From contig NZ_BPIJ01000002.1 in NCBI RefSeq assembly GCF_026004055.1, positions 311,803-375,802 of the forward strand: a stretch of DNA of 64,000 nt, written 5' to 3'. Below, in pieces: positions 5,670 through 62,462 of this stretch. Numbering within the stretch: the first letter of the stretch is position 1; each line of letters starts with the position of its first letter. Made by a program: the position numbers and the translations under genes. The notes under the pieces are model-generated. The model made no database searches. It saw only the letters and a list, made by a program, of their open reading frames with translations, and was not told where the DNA came from. Origin of the DNA: Meiothermus sp. Its GTDB lineage: Bacteria; Deinococcota; Deinococci; Deinococcales; Thermaceae.

Positions 5670-6146
5670 CTACTGCCCCCGTTTCCACTCCCCCGACTTG
5701 CCCCCGACCTTGTGCAAGAGGCGCAGGTCGGTAATTTCCAGGCCCTTGCTGGCCGCCTTGAGCATGTCGTAAACGGTCAGGGCCGCGACCGCGCAGGCCG
5801 TGAGGGCTTCCATCTCGACCCCCGTCTCGGCCTTGGTCTTGACGGTGGCGGTGATGTGGACTCGGGCTTCTTCGGGCAAAAAGCGAAGCTCTACCTCGGC
5901 GCCGGTGATGGGCAGCGGGTGGCACAAAGGAATCAGCTCCCCGGTTTTTTTGGCCGCCATAATGCCTGCAAGCTGGGCCACGCTCAAAGGGTCGCCCTTC
6001 CCCACCCCGCCCTCCCGGAGCGCTTCTACGGCTTCCGGGGTGAGCAGCACGGTGGCCTCGGCGGTGGCGGTACGCAGGGTGGGGGGCTTCTCGCTCACAT
6101 CCACCATGCGCGGCTTGCCATCTTGGAAATGGGTGAGTTTGCTCAT
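5670..6146 (-). CDS. moaC: Cyclic pyranopterin monophosphate synthase
   Basis: MoaC acts with MoaA in the first step of molybdenum cofactor synthesis, giving cyclic pyranopterin monophosphate. The 158-residue length is standard. Diagnostic segments are [17 protein letters not shown] at the N-terminus, [12 protein letters not shown] near residues 68-79, and [21 protein letters not shown] near 110-130, with the final GGKSGEW motif. No other molybdopterin gene is visible nearby, so this is an isolated moa gene placed ahead of a DNA glycosylase. The start ATG abuts a degenerate seven-base repeat array (6148-6188). Confidence 0.96.
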
Positions 6147-6147
6147 A

Positions 6148-6188
6148 GCTAAAGCCTAAGGCCAGAAGCCGAAAGCAGAAAGCCTGTT
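6148..6188. repeat. Degenerate heptanucleotide tandem array
   Basis: Reading the plus strand from 6154 in sevens gives GCCTAAG, GCCAGAA, GCCGAAA, GCAGAAA, GCCTGTT. The units differ but keep the seven-base period and a GC start. The array fills the gap between moaC and the ABC permease. Confidence 0.7.
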
Positions 6189-6959
6189 TCAGATGTCCTT
6201 GCGCTCAAAGATGAGCAGGGCCAACAAGGCGAAGCCCGCCGTGTAGATGATGAGCAAAGGCAGACCCAGGCCCACAGCGGCAGGGCGGATGTACAGGTCT
6301 AGGTAGCTGGTCAGCAGGAAGGGTTGGAGGGCCGGAAAGGCAATCAGAAGGCGCATCAGGAGCAGGGTCGAGACCGCCGCCAGGGCCGCCGAGGTGGTGC
6401 TGAGGAAGACCACCGCATAGAGCATGGCCAGGGCCGAGAGCGGCCAGAGCACCACTCCGGCCAGCGCATGGGCCCGCAGCAGCTCCATCAAGGCACCCAG
6501 GGGCGTAAGCTGGCCCACGCCGGCAAAGCTGCCCTCGCCCAGGCCCGTGCCCCCGAAGAAGCTACCCAGGCCAAAGGGCAGGCCGGCCAGCAACGAACCC
6601 ACCAGGCTCACCAGCAGCAAAATGAAGGGGTAGGCCAGCACCACGATGATTTTGGCCCCCAGCAAGCGGCTGCGGGGACTCGGGCGCAACAGCACCGACT
6701 TGAGGGTTCCCATCGAGACTTCCGAGCCCAGGACTTCCGCTGCCGCCATGGCCGTCAGGAAGGGAAACAGGAAGTCCATGCCGGTCAGGAGCGACAGCGC
6801 CGGCACCTGCCAGCCCGAGACCAGCTCGAGGCCATACTGCGCCCTGAGCCCCGGCGCGAAAGCCCACAAAATGGGCAACACCAAAGCCGCCAGCAGCCCA
6901 ATCTGCACCGAGCGCAGCCGCATCAGCTTGCCAAACTCCCAGACTAGTACCCGCAGCAT
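6189..6959 (-). CDS. ABC-2 type transporter permease
   Basis: The 256-residue membrane protein has about six hydrophobic segments and the ABC-2 exporter pattern, including FLTAMAAAEVLGSEVSMGTL and LLRPSPRSRLLGAKI loops. It should form an export complex with the ATPase encoded upstream at 7083-8000. The substrate is not evident. The start at 6959 (MLRVLVWEF) is preferred over one 11 codons upstream because AAGGAG lies six bases before it. An 120-bp gap with a heptamer array separates it from the ATPase gene. Confidence 0.85.
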   Translation of the reverse strand: MLRVLVWEFGKLMRLRSVQIGLLAALVLPILWAFAPGLRAQYGLELVSGWQVPALSLLTGMDFLFPFLTAMAAAEVLGSEVSMGTLKSVLLRPSPRSRLLGAKIIVVLAYPFILLLVSLVGSLLAGLPFGLGSFFGGTGLGEGSFAGVGQLTPLGALMELLRAHALAGVVLWPLSALAMLYAVVFLSTTSAALAAVSTLLLMRLLIAFPALQPFLLTSYLDLYIRPAAVGLGLPLLIIYTAGFALLALLIFERKDI

Positions 6960-7044
6960 GGCGTGCTCCTTCTGGACATGGATAGAAGCCACAGGTTAGC
7001 TCTCGAGGGAGAAAAGGGGGCCGGCAAACCCATCTGTCCCCCCC

Positions 7045-7085
7045 GGAGCCCTGACCCCTGACCCCTGGCCCCTCGTTTCTGGCTA
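7045..7085. repeat. Degenerate heptanucleotide tandem array
   Basis: Sevens from 7051 read CTGACCC, CTGACCC, CTGGCCC, CTCGTTT, CTGGCTA. It lies between the ATPase and permease genes and just overlaps the ATPase stop codon. Confidence 0.65.
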
Positions 7086-8000: not shown

Positions 8001-8007
8001 GGGTGTG

Positions 8008-8013
8008 ATTATA
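8008..8013 (-). promoter_or_regulatory. Leaderless consensus -10 (TATAAT) of the ABC ATPase
   Basis: TATAAT is followed by CACACCC and the ATG, a seven-base spacing. No -35 match was found at 16-18 bp upstream. Confidence 0.6.
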
Positions 8014-8082
8014 CGCAGGTAACGCGCCGGGCCTGGTTCACGTCCGGCAGATAGGTGTTGGACGTAACGAGGCAGCTTAATG

Positions 8083-8117
8083 GTCTATAGTCGATGGTCT
8101 ATTGTCTACAGCCGACT
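8083..8117. repeat. Heptanucleotide array, left half of a split array
   Basis: Sevens read GTCTATA, GTCGATG, GTCTATT, GTCTACA, GCCGACT. The series resumes after the inserted elements at 8567-8580 as GTCTGTA, GCCGATA, so the array appears to have been interrupted by the C3 and A3 insertions. Confidence 0.7.
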
Positions 8118-8118
8118 T

Positions 8119-8224
8119 TACAGCGCTCTTCACAGACGTGGCCGCCCATCCCGGCGGCCACTGTTCTGTCCAGGACAAAAAATTCTTAGTCCCCGATGGC
8201 TCGATATTTGTGAAGAGCGCTCTA
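8119..8224 (+). mobile_element. Family C MITE, deleted and uninterrupted (copy C3)
   Basis: The inverted termini are TACAGCGCTCTTCACA and TGTGAAGAGCGCTCTA. The core AGCGCTCTTCACA is perfect for 13 bp. The element is 106 bp, against about 270 bp of C sequence in the other copies, because the centre is deleted between CCGCCC and GGCGGCC. It contains the intact junction ATTCTTAGTCCCC that is occupied by families A and B in copies C1 and C2, so it serves as the empty site. Confidence 0.8.
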
Positions 8225-8225
8225 G

Positions 8226-8563
8226 TGGTCTGGTAACTAAATTTCCGAAGTTATGTACCGCACACCGAATACATCGTTGTAGAGATTCCATCCCACTTCG
8301 GCCCCCGAGATGGCCTAAAAACGCCCTCCCTACCGCGTAGGGAGGGTGAGGGAGGGTATCAGGCAAGGCCCCCAATCCGCTGCGTGAAGGGCCAGGTCAG
8401 CCACCCCACCTGGCCTCCCCTACGCAGTAGGGGAGGGAAGGGGCGAAGCGGGGTGGGGTGCTTTTTGCATGACCGTACAGGCAAGGCACCGAAGGCCCAG
8501 GTTTACGAGACACGGCGCGTTCTGAAGGCTAAACCTCATACTGCGTATTTTGTTACCAGACCA
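8226..8563 (+). mobile_element. Family A MITE, full length (copy A3)
   Basis: This 338-bp copy has termini TGGTCTGGTAAC and GTTACCAGACCA. The left flank is CTAG and the right flank GTAG, so the target duplication has one mismatch. It inserted at the right end of C3 and splits the heptamer array. It is almost identical to A2. Confidence 0.88.
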
Positions 8564-8678
8564 GTAGTCTGTAGCCGATAGGAAAAGTAGGGCAGGGCGG
8601 GCAAGCCAAGAATCGTGTTGAAATCCGCATTTTGGACGGTGTGGGTGGGGAACCTTTTAGCGAGGGTCTGCATCCATC

Positions 8679-8706
8679 TTGCCTTTGGGCGCTGGTGTGC
8701 TATCCT
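8679..8706 (+). promoter_or_regulatory. Promoter of the SRP RNA gene
   Basis: TTGCCT (8679-8684) and TATCCT (8701-8706) are 16 bp apart. The expected start, about seven bases further on, coincides with the 5' end of the closing helix of the SRP RNA. Confidence 0.5.
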
Positions 8707-8711
8707 CGAGG

Positions 8712-8818
8712 TCGCGTCCTCGGTCTGACGCGGCGCACCAGCGTGAACCGGGTCAGGGCCGGAAGGCAGCAGCCCTAAGCGCCACGGAGCGGGTGCCGTC
8801 AGGGAGCCGGGGACGCTT
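8712..8818 (+). ncRNA. ffs: Signal recognition particle RNA, small bacterial type
   Basis: The conserved apical domain is plain: GGTCAGGGCCGGAAGGCAGC followed by AGCCCTAAG holds the GGAA tetraloop and the asymmetric loop that binds Ffh. The ends pair through GCGTCCTCGG (8714-8723) and CCGGGGACGC (8807-8816), and an internal stem pairs CTGACG with CGTCAG. A T6 tract follows directly, so the closing helix probably doubles as the intrinsic terminator. The length, about 105 nt, is typical of 4.5S-like RNA. It acts in co-translational targeting of membrane proteins. Confidence 0.95.
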
Positions 8819-8865
8819 TTTTATTGGGTTCGGAGCCGGTTAGAAGATTCTCACAGCACAGGTAA

Positions 8866-8897
8866 ACCAAAAAGAGGGCGCCGGAATTCCGGCGCCC
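8866..8897 (-). terminator. Intrinsic terminator of the 700-residue protein gene
   Basis: A perfect 22-bp palindrome (8876-8897, half-site GGGCGCCGGAA) is followed on the minus strand by TCTTTTTGG. It lies 18 bp beyond the stop codon of the gene at 8915-11017. Confidence 0.85.
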
Positions 8898-8914
8898 TTG
8901 TTGATAATTGCCTG

Positions 8915-17793: not shown

Positions 17794-17855
17794 AGGAAGT
17801 GGGAGGTAGGAAGTAGGAGTAGGCGTTGGAACCCATCTCCTACCTCCTACCACCC
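17794..17855. repeat. Heptanucleotide arrays in inverted orientation
   Basis: Sevens from 17802 read GGAGGTA, GGAAGTA, GGAGTAG. About 20 bp later the near-complement appears as CTCCTAC, CTCCTAC, CACCCCC. The pair could fold into a long imperfect hairpin downstream of the lipoprotein gene. No T-run follows, so it is not a typical terminator. Confidence 0.65.
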
Positions 17856-21876: not shown

Positions 21877-21918
21877 GCTGAAGGCTCAAAGCCACAGGTC
21901 GAAAGCCTTGCGCCCTAT
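21877..21918. repeat. Degenerate heptanucleotide tandem array
   Basis: Sevens read GCTGAAG, GCTCAAA, GCCACAG, GTCGAAA, GCCTTGC, GCCCTAT. The array lies between the convergent exported-protein and helicase genes. Confidence 0.7.
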
Positions 21919-34572: not shown

Positions 34573-35586
34573 ATGCCCGACCCATTGGCCCTTGCACTCA
34601 CCCCCCAGATTGGCCCCAGCCGCCTGCAACAAGCCCTTAGCACCGACCTCAGCATCGAGGCCGTGTCCGAGGTGCTGGGCAAGGAAATTGCCGCCGCCTA
34701 TACCCAAACCCTCAAAGAAGGCCTGGCCGAAAAAGAGCGCGAACAGGCAGCCAAGCTGGGCCTGCGGCTGATTGGGCTTTGGGAAGATGGCTACCCCGAG
34801 GGGTTGCGGCATCTGGACAGCCCGCCCATGGTGTTGTACCTGAAAGGCGAACTTCCCCCCTCCAAGCCCAACATCGGCATTGTGGGCACCCGCAAGGCCA
34901 GTCCCTGGGCGATCGCCTGGACGCACAAAGTGGCGCGCGAACTGGCCGAGGCCGGGGTGGGCATCATCTCGGGGCTGGCCCTGGGGATTGATGCCGCCTC
35001 GCACCAGGGCGCCCTGGAAGGGGGCGGCTACACCCTGGGGGTGCTGGGCAGCGCCATGGATCGCTTCTATCCCCCCCAGAACCGCGCCCTGGCTGAAAAG
35101 ATGCACGTGCTCTCGGAGTTTCCGCTGGGCACCCCGCCACAAGCGGGCTTGTTTCCCCGGCGTAACCGTATTGTGGCCGCTTTGTCCAAAGCCGTGCTGG
35201 TGGTGGAGGCCGGGGAGAAAAGCGGCAGCCTGATTACCGCCCGGTTTGCGGCAGAACTGGGCCGCGACGTGCTGGCCGTACCGGGCCGCCCCGGCGATGC
35301 TTTCTCGCTGGGCTGCAACCGGCTGATTCAGGACGGGGCCGGGCTGGTGATGAATACCGGGGATGTGCTGAACGCGCTGGGGGTACGGGCCCCACAAAAG
35401 CAATCGTTGCAGCTCGCGGGCCCCGAGGCCCAGGTCTACCGGACCTTGCTCGAGCTCTCCGAGGCCCTGCCCGACGACCTCGCCCAGACCACCGGCCTCC
35501 CCGCCCACGAGACCCTCTCGGTGCTGATGCTGCTCGAGCTCAAGGGCCTGGTGCAGAGCAGTGCAGGACGCTACCGCCCGATCTGA
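34573..35586 (+). CDS. dprA: DNA processing protein DprA
   Basis: DprA binds incoming single strands and loads RecA during natural transformation. The 337-residue protein has the extended Rossmann fold with NIGIVGTRKASPWA, GIISGLALGIDAASHQGAL, GVLGSAMDRFYP and KSGSLITARFAAELGRDV, and a C-terminal winged-helix-like region (LPDDLAQTTGLPAHETLSVLMLLELKG). The start ATG is chosen where homology begins; the frame upstream runs through era. TATCCT lies ten bases before it. The gene fits the minor pilin operon 2 kb away as part of a competence programme. Confidence 0.95.
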   Translation: MPDPLALALTPQIGPSRLQQALSTDLSIEAVSEVLGKEIAAAYTQTLKEGLAEKEREQAAKLGLRLIGLWEDGYPEGLRHLDSPPMVLYLKGELPPSKPNIGIVGTRKASPWAIAWTHKVARELAEAGVGIISGLALGIDAASHQGALEGGGYTLGVLGSAMDRFYPPQNRALAEKMHVLSEFPLGTPPQAGLFPRRNRIVAALSKAVLVVEAGEKSGSLITARFAAELGRDVLAVPGRPGDAFSLGCNRLIQDGAGLVMNTGDVLNALGVRAPQKQSLQLAGPEAQVYRTLLELSEALPDDLAQTTGLPAHETLSVLMLLELKGLVQSSAGRYRPI

Positions 35587-35644: not shown

Positions 35645-35672
35645 CCCTGTTCCCTGACCCCTGGCCCTTTCT
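35645..35672. repeat. Degenerate heptanucleotide tandem array
   Basis: Sevens read CCCTGTT, CCCTGAC, CCCTGGC, CCTTTCT. The array ends two bases before the stop codon of the convergent secreted-protein gene. Confidence 0.6.
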
Positions 35673-35673
35673 C

Positions 35674-36441
35674 TTACGGAAACGCCCTGACCGAAGACCA
35701 GACCAGCCCCTGGGCCCCCACCGAGCCCATCAGCTCGTACCAGCCGGGCTTGAGCCCCGGCGGAATGGGAAAGCTGGCCGGAAGGGCCCGGAACTTGTTG
35801 CCATCGAAGTAGGCCACCACCCGCACCTGGGGTTGTTCGCCGGCGGCTCGCAGGGCCAGGAAGGGATCTAAGCGGTTATTGGAAAGCCAGGCGCTCACAT
35901 GCTGGTACTGCGAGGCTCCCACCAGACTGGCGGGGCCTTGATAGAAAGCCCAGGGCACGGGGCTGTGCAGCTTGACTTCGGTAGCCACAAACACCTCACC
36001 CTCCCAAACCCCGATGGCCTCGAGCCACATACCCGGAATGGCCAGGCTCAGCCAGGGAGAGTTGCTCTGAATGCGCACATTCCCCGAGATGACCTGACCG
36101 GCGGCACTTACCGTCACCTGGCCCATGTAGCTGCGAGGCTGGCGGGCACTCGAGGGGTTGGGGTTGGCGTTTGAGTTCGGATTGGGGCTTGGGTTATCGC
36201 TGCTCTTGTGACCACCGCCCGAACCGCTGTTCCCACTGTTTCCATTACCGCCGCTGTTCCCACCCCCGTTGCCATTCCCATTACCGTTGCCGTTCCCATT
36301 GCCGTTGCCGCGCTGCACCAGCACAGGCCCATCGGGCGCAAGGTCGGGCTGACCGCTGACCGGAAACCTTGCAGCCAGCACCGGGGGGACAGCCAACATC
36401 AGGGCCATCCACAGCCAAAACACCAAGCGGAGACTACCCAC
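35674..36441 (-). CDS. Secreted Asn-Gly-repeat protein
   Basis: The 255-residue protein has a Sec signal peptide (LVFWLWMALMLAVPPVLAA). Then comes a low-complexity stretch at about residues 45-95: repeated Asn-Gly dipeptides, a Gly/Ser/Asn section, and Pro-Asn repeats. The rest is a beta-rich domain containing RSYMGQVTVSAAGQVISGNVRI and later WYELMGSV. It resembles the DUF5666-type small beta-barrels found in exported proteins, with low certainty. The GTG start overlaps the histidine-kinase stop by 8 bp, so it is the third gene of the two-component operon and perhaps its sensor partner or output. Confidence 0.75.
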   Translation of the reverse strand: MGSLRLVFWLWMALMLAVPPVLAARFPVSGQPDLAPDGPVLVQRGNGNGNGNGNGNGNGGGNSGGNGNSGNSGSGGGHKSSDNPSPNPNSNANPNPSSARQPRSYMGQVTVSAAGQVISGNVRIQSNSPWLSLAIPGMWLEAIGVWEGEVFVATEVKLHSPVPWAFYQGPASLVGASQYQHVSAWLSNNRLDPFLALRAAGEQPQVRVVAYFDGNKFRALPASFPIPPGLKPGWYELMGSVGAQGLVWSSVRAFP

Positions 36442-51252: not shown

Positions 51253-51295
51253 AGCGACAAATAGCATTGGGCGATAACCAGAGAGCCCGCAGGAG

Positions 51296-51330
51296 GCTAT
51301 CCGCTATCGGCTACGAGCTATTGGCCTCCT
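51296..51330. repeat. Degenerate heptanucleotide tandem array
   Basis: Sevens read GCTATCC, GCTATCG, GCTACGA, GCTATTG, GCCTCCT. Weaker units extend to about 51264. The array fills the pntA2-pntB gap and touches the pntA2 stop. Confidence 0.7.
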
Positions 51331-51611
51331 TTCGGCTTCCGTTCGAACATCTCCAGCATCCGTTCGGTCACGGCGTAGCCGCCCGCAGCGTTGGCCGCCC
51401 CCAGAATTACGCCAAAAAAGCCGATGGCCTGCTCGAGGGGGGTCTCGGCGTGGCCCAAGACCACCATGGCCCCCACCACCACAATGCCGTGAATGAAGTT
51501 GGAGCCCGACATCAGGGGGGTGTGCAGAATCACCGGCACCCGGCTAATTACTTCATACCCGGTAAAAGCCGCCAGCAAAAAAATGTATAGCGCAGCCCAG
51601 GTTGCGTCCAT
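51318..51611 (-). CDS. pntA2: NAD(P) transhydrogenase subunit alpha-2
   Basis: The 97-residue membrane protein carries the part of domain II that is fused to PntA in E. coli, with four helices and SRVPVILHTPLMSGSNFIHGIVVVGAM as signature. Separate pntA1 and pntA2 genes are the usual form in Thermus and Rhodospirillum. Its ATG overlaps the pntA1 stop as TGATG, with GGAGGT upstream. It assembles with PntA1 and PntB. Confidence 0.95.
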   Translation of the reverse strand: MDATWAALYIFLLAAFTGYEVISRVPVILHTPLMSGSNFIHGIVVVGAMVVLGHAETPLEQAIGFFGVILGAANAAGGYAVTERMLEMFERKPKGGQ

Positions 51612-60065: not shown

Positions 60066-61419
<1,354 letters not shown>

Positions 61420-61443: not shown

Positions 61444-61480
61444 GACCTAAGACCTACGACTTGTAACTTGCAACCTGCGG
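61444..61480. repeat. Degenerate heptanucleotide tandem array
   Basis: Sevens read GACCTAA, GACCTAC, GACTTGT, AACTTGC, AACCTGC. The array occupies the E1 alpha-E1 beta gap inside an operon. Confidence 0.7.
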
Positions 61481-61487
61481 AGATTGT

Positions 61488-62462
61488 ATGCCAACCATAA
61501 CCCTAATCCAGGCGATCAATACCGCCCTGGACGAAGAAATGAACCGCGACGAGCGAGTGATGTTGCTGGGGGAGGATGTGGGCAAGCGGGGCGGGGTTTT
61601 CCTGGCGACCGAGGGCCTACAACAAAAATATGGCCCCGACCGCGTTATAGACACGCCCCTCTCCGAAGCCGCCATTCTGGGGGCCGCCGTAGGACTGGCG
61701 GCCCACGGGATGCGCCCGGTGGCCGAGATTCAGTTCGCCGACTACGTCTTCCCCGGCATCGATCAGCTCTTCTCCCAGGCCGCCAAGCTGCGCTACCGCT
61801 CCGGGGGGCAGTTCACCGCCCCCATGGTGGTGCGGATGCCCAGTGGCGGCGGCGTGAAGGGCGGGCACCACCACTCGCAAAGCCCTGAGGCCCACTTTGC
61901 CCACACCGCCGGCCTCAAGGTGGTGGTGGTCTCCACCCCCTACGACGCCAAGGGGCTCCTCAAAACGGCCATCCGCGACGACGACCCGGTGGTCTTCATG
62001 GAGCCCAAACGGCTCTACCGCGCGGTAAAGGAAGAAGTACCGTCCGACGACTACCTGATTCCCATCGGCAAGGCCGCCGTCCGCCGCGAGGGAAGGGACA
62101 TCACCCTGGTCTCTTACGGCGGGCCGATGGTAGAGACGCTCAAGGCCGCCGAGGAGATGGCCGCCGCCGGGGTTGAGGCGGAGGTGATTGACCTGCGCAC
62201 CGTGATGCCCTGGGACAAAGAGGCGGTTCTAAACTCGGTGGCCAAGACCGGGCGGCTGCTGATGATCGCCGAGGCCCCCCGCACCGCCAGCGTGGCCTCG
62301 GAGGTGGCCGCCACCGTTTCGGAAGAGCTGTTCGACCAGCTGCTGGCTCCACCCCTGCGGGTGACCGGGTTCGACACCCCCTACCCGCTGGCCCAGGACA
62401 AGCTCTACATGCCCACCGTAACGCGCATTCTGAACGCTGCCAAGCGTCTACTCGACTACTAG
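61488..62462 (+). CDS. Branched-chain 2-oxoacid dehydrogenase E1 beta
   Basis: The 324-residue E1 beta subunit has [27 protein letters not shown] at the N-terminus, [20 protein letters not shown] (Glu for ThDP activation) and the C-terminal transketolase domain with [16 protein letters not shown]. It completes the ThDP site with E1 alpha. GGAG lies six bases upstream of the ATG. Confidence 0.95.

Follow-up and report, generated by a model that had tools for sequence, protein, structure and literature searches.

What occupies the junction between the PDH E1-alpha (60310–61419) and E1-beta (61488–62462) genes of this Meiothermus sp., where degenerate units of exactly seven bases follow one another head to tail, and is it an accident of one gap or a member of a wider class? 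The window, i.e., the whole stretch of 64,000 nucleotides analysed here (G000:C2:311803–375802; GC 62%), had been predicted to hold at least eight such intergenic arrays. We scored the eight listed sites for lag 7 and compared them with 1 Mb of sequence drawn from a first-order Markov null; the resulting features, none of which is assigned to a strand, are as follows:

6149–6183: array of AAAGCCN-type units; score 14, none in the 1 Mb null
7042–7073: array CCCTGAC CCCTGAC CCCTGGC; score 19, the top of the sample, none in the 1 Mb null
8080–8108: array GTCTATA GTCGATG GTCTATT GTCTACA; score 12, with a null expectation of about 0.02 for about 10 kb
17795–17818: left arm of an inverted heptamer pair, AGGAAGT-type units; score 11
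17832–17854: right arm of the inverted heptamer pair, CTCCTAC-type units, reverse complement of the left arm; score 10
35645–35667: array CCCTGTT CCCTGAC CCCTGGC; score 10, moderate alone
51296–51320: weak GCTATCG-type array; score 10
61444–61478: array GACCTAA GACCTAC GACTTGT AACTTGC AACCTGC; score 14, none in the 1 Mb null

Three of the eight predicted sites (6149, 7042 and 61444) lie beyond chance on their own and four are moderate (8080–8108; the pair 17795–17818 and 17832–17854; 35645–35667; and 51296–51320, where all but the first have a null expectation of about 0.06–0.1 per segment), while 21877–21918, with a score of just 5, stays at chance level and is unsupported. The period is strict in the confirmed sites, although their units are only about 62–71% alike and thus fall short of perfect or near-perfect repetition; longer and much cleaner arrays are present in genomes G006 and G022. 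The array at 61444–61478 ends next to a ribosome-binding site. That at 6149–6183 is flanked by gene 5670–6146 (MoaC) and an ABC permease gene (6189–6992), which the array at 7042–7073 in turn separates from an ABC ATPase gene, and the one at 35645–35667 lies between the convergent genes 34573–35586 (DprA) and 35674–36441. The array at 8080–8108, which is also matched by TRF (8080–8106), is located within the long gap 8001–8914, adjoining a dispersed repeat (8123–8569) and the SRP RNA. The latter, a small bacterial SRP RNA gene at 8717–8816, is the only Rfam match within the window, and no known RNA family was detected at the array sites. The site at 51296 makes a poor array: it overlaps the 3' end of gene 51318–51611 (the gap being 51268–51317), and its orthologous gaps in relatives contain no array. 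Within the same gap, between two transhydrogenase genes, we observed an inverted repeat, GCTGATAGC...GCTATCGGC, to which the site at 51296 belongs; the repeat is kept in most congeners, whereas the heptamer array is not. Gene 35674–36441, for which no Pfam match was found, carries at 36238–36310 an in-frame 18-base tandem repeat (GTTCCCATTACCGTTGCC) together with 6-base repeats.

The period extends well beyond the window. Besides parts of related genomes, we sampled 855 kb of the 3.18-Mb G000 genome (C1:1–400000 and C2:1–455000), in which genes were our own calls made with a simple dicodon caller. In 461 gaps of 20–400 bp, the autocorrelation compared with dinucleotide-preserving shuffles reached z values of 7.7, 4.1, and 2.4 at lags 7, 14, and 21, lag 7 being the strongest intergenic excess; lags 5 and 2 were also raised (z 6.0 and 5.8), with no excess of long segments there. 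Of the maximal lag-k segments with a score of at least 10, lag 7 gave 22 and lag 14 gave 10, while every other lag between 4 and 15 gave 0–4. Coding DNA of the same sample exhibited the expected multiples of three and no lag-7 peak, i.e., the excess is strongly intergenic. Since the original prediction had tied its period to an excess at lag 7 over such shuffles, the presence of that excess sustains it genome-wide. Heptamer arrays in intergenic DNA are a real class. It could be argued that low-complexity intergenic DNA of a given composition yields apparent heptamers which are then picked out by eye, and one of the eight sites (21877), as well as the moderate standing of four others when taken alone, would agree with this. 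Yet, in three genomes no other lag reaches the level of lag 7, whose excess is missing from coding DNA as well as from the sample of G016, which we take to be M. ruber DSM 1279; moreover, GNCNAT spaced by seven occurs 20–491 times per strand in array-rich genomes, compared with 0–2 times for the 8-spaced control. An origin by chance is extremely improbable as a general account: it is already refuted for the array class and holds for site 21877.

Comparison of orthologous gaps, proposed together with the original prediction, revealed that unit number changes between close relatives by whole units. The 6147–6188 gap measures 42 nt in G000, G002, G004, and G015 and 28 nt in G003 (taken as M. hypogaeus DSM 23238), so that the close pair G002/G003 differs by a clean 14 nt at this site. 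In G011 (taken as M. taiwanensis DSM 14542), G013, and G016, the gap is 15 nt long with a single AAAAGCC, and the array can be read as having grown from one unit or shrunk to one. At 17794, G006 is without exactly one 7-nt unit, and a stretch of about 130 nt is wholly missing in G002, G003, and G004. The 7042 site is variable among array-rich species, and its array is absent in G011, G013, G016, and G008, where the gap is 21 nt. In G000, the array portion of the PDH gap spans 35 nt; it is 24 nt long in G002 as well as in G003, and 10 nt long in G004. The difference between 24 and 10 nt agrees with a change in unit number, but the 11-nt difference between G000 and G003 is not a clean unit. In eight congeners, the PDH junction has a gap of 8–13 nt and no array. 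Related species lack arrays at these very junctions, where the arrays are thus dispensable. A pooled histogram of indel lengths in orthologous gaps gave no peak at 7, a result that we consider uninformative, since at such divergence most gaps can hardly be aligned.

The internal structure of the arrays points in the same direction. In runs selected by G and C alone, similarity of the other five columns decreases with unit distance from 0.50 through 0.47 and 0.43 to 0.37 (four units apart), and between loci it is 0.29. Such a decay is what stepwise local duplication leaves behind, and it confirms that the heptamer themes predicted for each locus are real.

The view that the arrays have only their period in common, and not sequence, has to be revised. 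Phase-aligning the arrays and testing them against permuted columns of the same arrays identified G-N-C as the most enriched pair (z 9.1). This core is present in 18 of 22 array consensuses in G000 (9.9 expected), 12 of 15 in G002 (7.2 expected), and 24 of 31 in G006 (15.6 expected), with a slight excess in G022 (31 of 37, compared with 25.6 expected); the pooled figures are partly non-independent, as some arrays are orthologous across three genomes, while the result for G000 only is independent. Runs of at least four G-N-C at spacing 7, which in these arrays comprise 4–6 head-to-tail units, number 18 in G000, 9 in G002, and 21 in G006, as against 0–5 at spacings other than multiples of seven, and coding DNA shows no excess of G-N-C runs at spacing 7. 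Within arrays, core columns are conserved at 0.86 versus 0.76 for other G/C columns (P 0.0016), and the linkers between cores are locus-specific. The consensus is GNCNATN and related units, a minority of which have a G-tract; the units thus lack as a rule the G-tract of at least three that marks the G-quadruplex type of Xanthomonas and Nostoc. The strand symmetry of the remaining consensus (GNCNATN) may reflect arrays lying in both orientations. The core itself would reflect which units expand or persist. Some property of a polymerase, or a protein that binds nucleic acids with a footprint of seven nucleotides, might specifically make or keep seven-spaced G-N-C in untranslated DNA mostly regardless of the other bases, a suggestion to which we assign a low probability.

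The core also invites a functional reading, in which the seven-spaced G-N-C of mRNA or DNA would be recognized by a protein whose footprint is seven nucleotides, and arrays close to stop codons or ribosome-binding sites would tune expression within operons. The better conservation of the core columns, the location of arrays by stop codons in co-directional gaps, and the cold-shock-type proteins which MacGregor suggested for TAACTGA heptamers (PMC4679880) speak in its favor. On the other hand, the same operon junctions lack arrays in close relatives, the few neighboring genes checked have no apparent functional theme, and linker differences between loci can be explained by local duplication; we regard selected binding arrays as unlikely. 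As to the placement itself, co-directional genes flank 50 of the 68 arrays (P 0.046). Array starts within 12 nt of a stop codon were counted 12 times in G006 and 7 times in G002, compared with 4.3 at random in both cases, and 8 times in G000 compared with 5.7 (P 0.115). No pull towards start codons was seen in this test, in which start calls are less reliable. Most arrays show no special fold; about a fifth to a third fold better than shuffles, the strongest being inverted pairs. RNA folding was rejected as a general basis of the arrays: the mean z is near that of control pieces and no better than that of column-permuted arrays, with hairpins in a minority.

We determined the distribution of the class by counting GNCNAT three times at spacing 7 on each strand. 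The counts were 20/24 in G000, 29/32 in G002, 41/47 in G003, 34/35 in G004, 29/39 in G005, 134/125 in G006, 91/90 in G015, 45/41 in G018, and 491/516 in G022; the pattern is absent or nearly so in the remaining Meiothermus genomes and absent from all 27 genomes of genus g5, which, from kinship, we infer to be Thermus. The 8-spaced control gave at most 2 in any genome, and a backward-pattern control was near zero except in G005 (10) and G022 (122/140), where the matches are probably other unit types in the same register. Some Meiothermus species are thus rich in arrays, as is a sister genus (with up to about 29 units), whereas M. ruber-like and M. taiwanensis-like genomes have none. The PDH E1-beta protein encoded in the window, which places the host in Meiothermus, shares 92–93% identity with its counterparts in Meiothermus taiwanensis, M. 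hypogaeus, and a Meiothermus MAG. In the E1-beta gene tree, most array-rich genomes are closely related, but they do not make up one clean clade. The array-free G007 and G012, with a PDH gap of 10 nt, group with G000 on this tree, possibly owing to transfer of PDH genes. By presence or absence in 50 genomes, none of reverse transcriptase, Y1 transposase, and Y-family polymerase tracks array load.

A further question is whether the arrays are pieces or flanks of a dispersed, copy-spreading miniature mobile repeat. G022 lends itself to this interpretation: its arrays reach about 29 units and combine several unit types, whose order recurs, on a single 7-base register, and these composites are copied beside a C-rich hairpin module, with 511 array-to-array matches, i.e., multiple copies with extended common sequence (some first-pass detections in G022 were runs of N, and the fold, match and consensus counts exclude gaps with N). 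The composite arrays of G022 are apparently a dispersed element on a 7-base register. In G000, a dispersed repeat adjoins the 8080 array; yet, the 20 array gaps of its sample yielded just 2 array-to-array matches, short of multiple copies with extended common sequence, many gaps hold the array alone, and Y1 transposase does not follow array load, being absent from G000, G004, and G015. A mobile element is already a weak reading for G000, and as an account of the arrays altogether we find it quite improbable. At loci L213–L219 of G022 (C3:2500001–2640000), the composite arrays lie on either side of the C-rich hairpin module, and copies of them occur at several loci. As for the window repeat at 8123–8569, a part of about 345 bp (8222–8569) has more than 10 copies in G000 at 95–99% identity and two in G008; its flanking parts have many copies of 75–91% across Meiothermus. 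The repeat is MITE-like.

We consider it likely that the arrays are degenerate heptanucleotide microsatellites that arose through slippage or unit-wise exchange and have since eroded, in some cases as inverted pairs. They would start from a short intergenic sequence, often with a G-N-C triplet and often directly 3' of a stop codon, at which whole 7-base units would be gained or lost through replication slippage or unequal exchange. The copies would then drift apart by point mutation, and some events may yield a reverse-complement partner array, giving rise to the minority of hairpin-like pairs. Most arrays are probably near neutral, and would be kept where promoters and ribosome-binding sites are spared. 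The placement, inverted pairs and length variation match those reported for Xanthomonas heptamers, for which slippage has been proposed (PMC4692102, PMC4679880). Some observations sit less well with this scenario: plain slippage and decay do not predict the extra conservation of the core columns, the pooled indel lengths have no peak at 7, and relatives may differ by lengths that seven does not divide, such as 35 versus 24 nt at the PDH junction. The G-N-C conservation may stem from selection for a bound array or from a bias in which units expand. Why bacterial repeats so often use seven-base units is a long-standing question, and the Meiothermus group offers array-rich and array-free sister species, stages from one to about 29 units, and a common core in differing units; this makes slippage and the roles of polymerase or binding proteins testable in culturable thermophiles.

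Heptanucleotides are, as quoted from Mrazek and colleagues (2007), the most abundant class of long SSRs in most genomes, for which polymerase slippage was proposed, with a step size that is, according to a proposal cited in the same papers, set by polymerase contact length (PMC4679880, PMC4692102). As summarized there, that survey counted runs longer than statistically expected (PMC4679880), a threshold that most of the degenerate Meiothermus arrays would probably not reach. Our literature search found no report of Meiothermus heptamers. TAACTGA repeats of marine Beggiatoaceae, cyanobacteria, and Bacteroidetes are likewise intergenic direct heptamers of patchy taxonomic spread, with two to six copies in Beggiatoaceae and mixed with other heptamers in Microcystis; in contrast to the Meiothermus arrays, which have degenerate units and more often follow stop codons, they consist of a single exact unit without G-N-C, mostly directly upstream of start codons (PMC4679880). 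Cyanobacterial STRR sequences (Calothrix), as cited in PMC4692102, are tandem seven-base units of several types per genome. By description, they differ from the Meiothermus arrays in being near-perfect repeats. The STRR units CCCCAGT and CAACAGT contain a G-T-C triplet once they are in tandem. The predicted likeness to cyanobacterial repeats is thus apt, while degeneracy does not make a difference in kind: the heptamers of Xanthomonas, GGGAATC/(GGGANTN)n, and of Nostoc, GGGGA(C/T)T, are also intergenic, mostly of about four heterogeneous units, located mainly between aligned genes by the upstream stop codon, and, as Rehm and colleagues reported for the G-rich Xanthomonas heptamers, form inverted pairs and vary in length between sister species (PMC4692102). 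Theirs is one G-tract unit able to form quadruplexes, whereas Meiothermus has many unit types with a G-N-C core, without a fixed G-tract or a single genome-wide unit. As the units are alike only in part and not near-perfect, we class the arrays as a variant of intergenic heptanucleotide repeats, with the look of a worn relative of the cyanobacterial and Xanthomonas seven-base repeats and most likely made by copying slippage.
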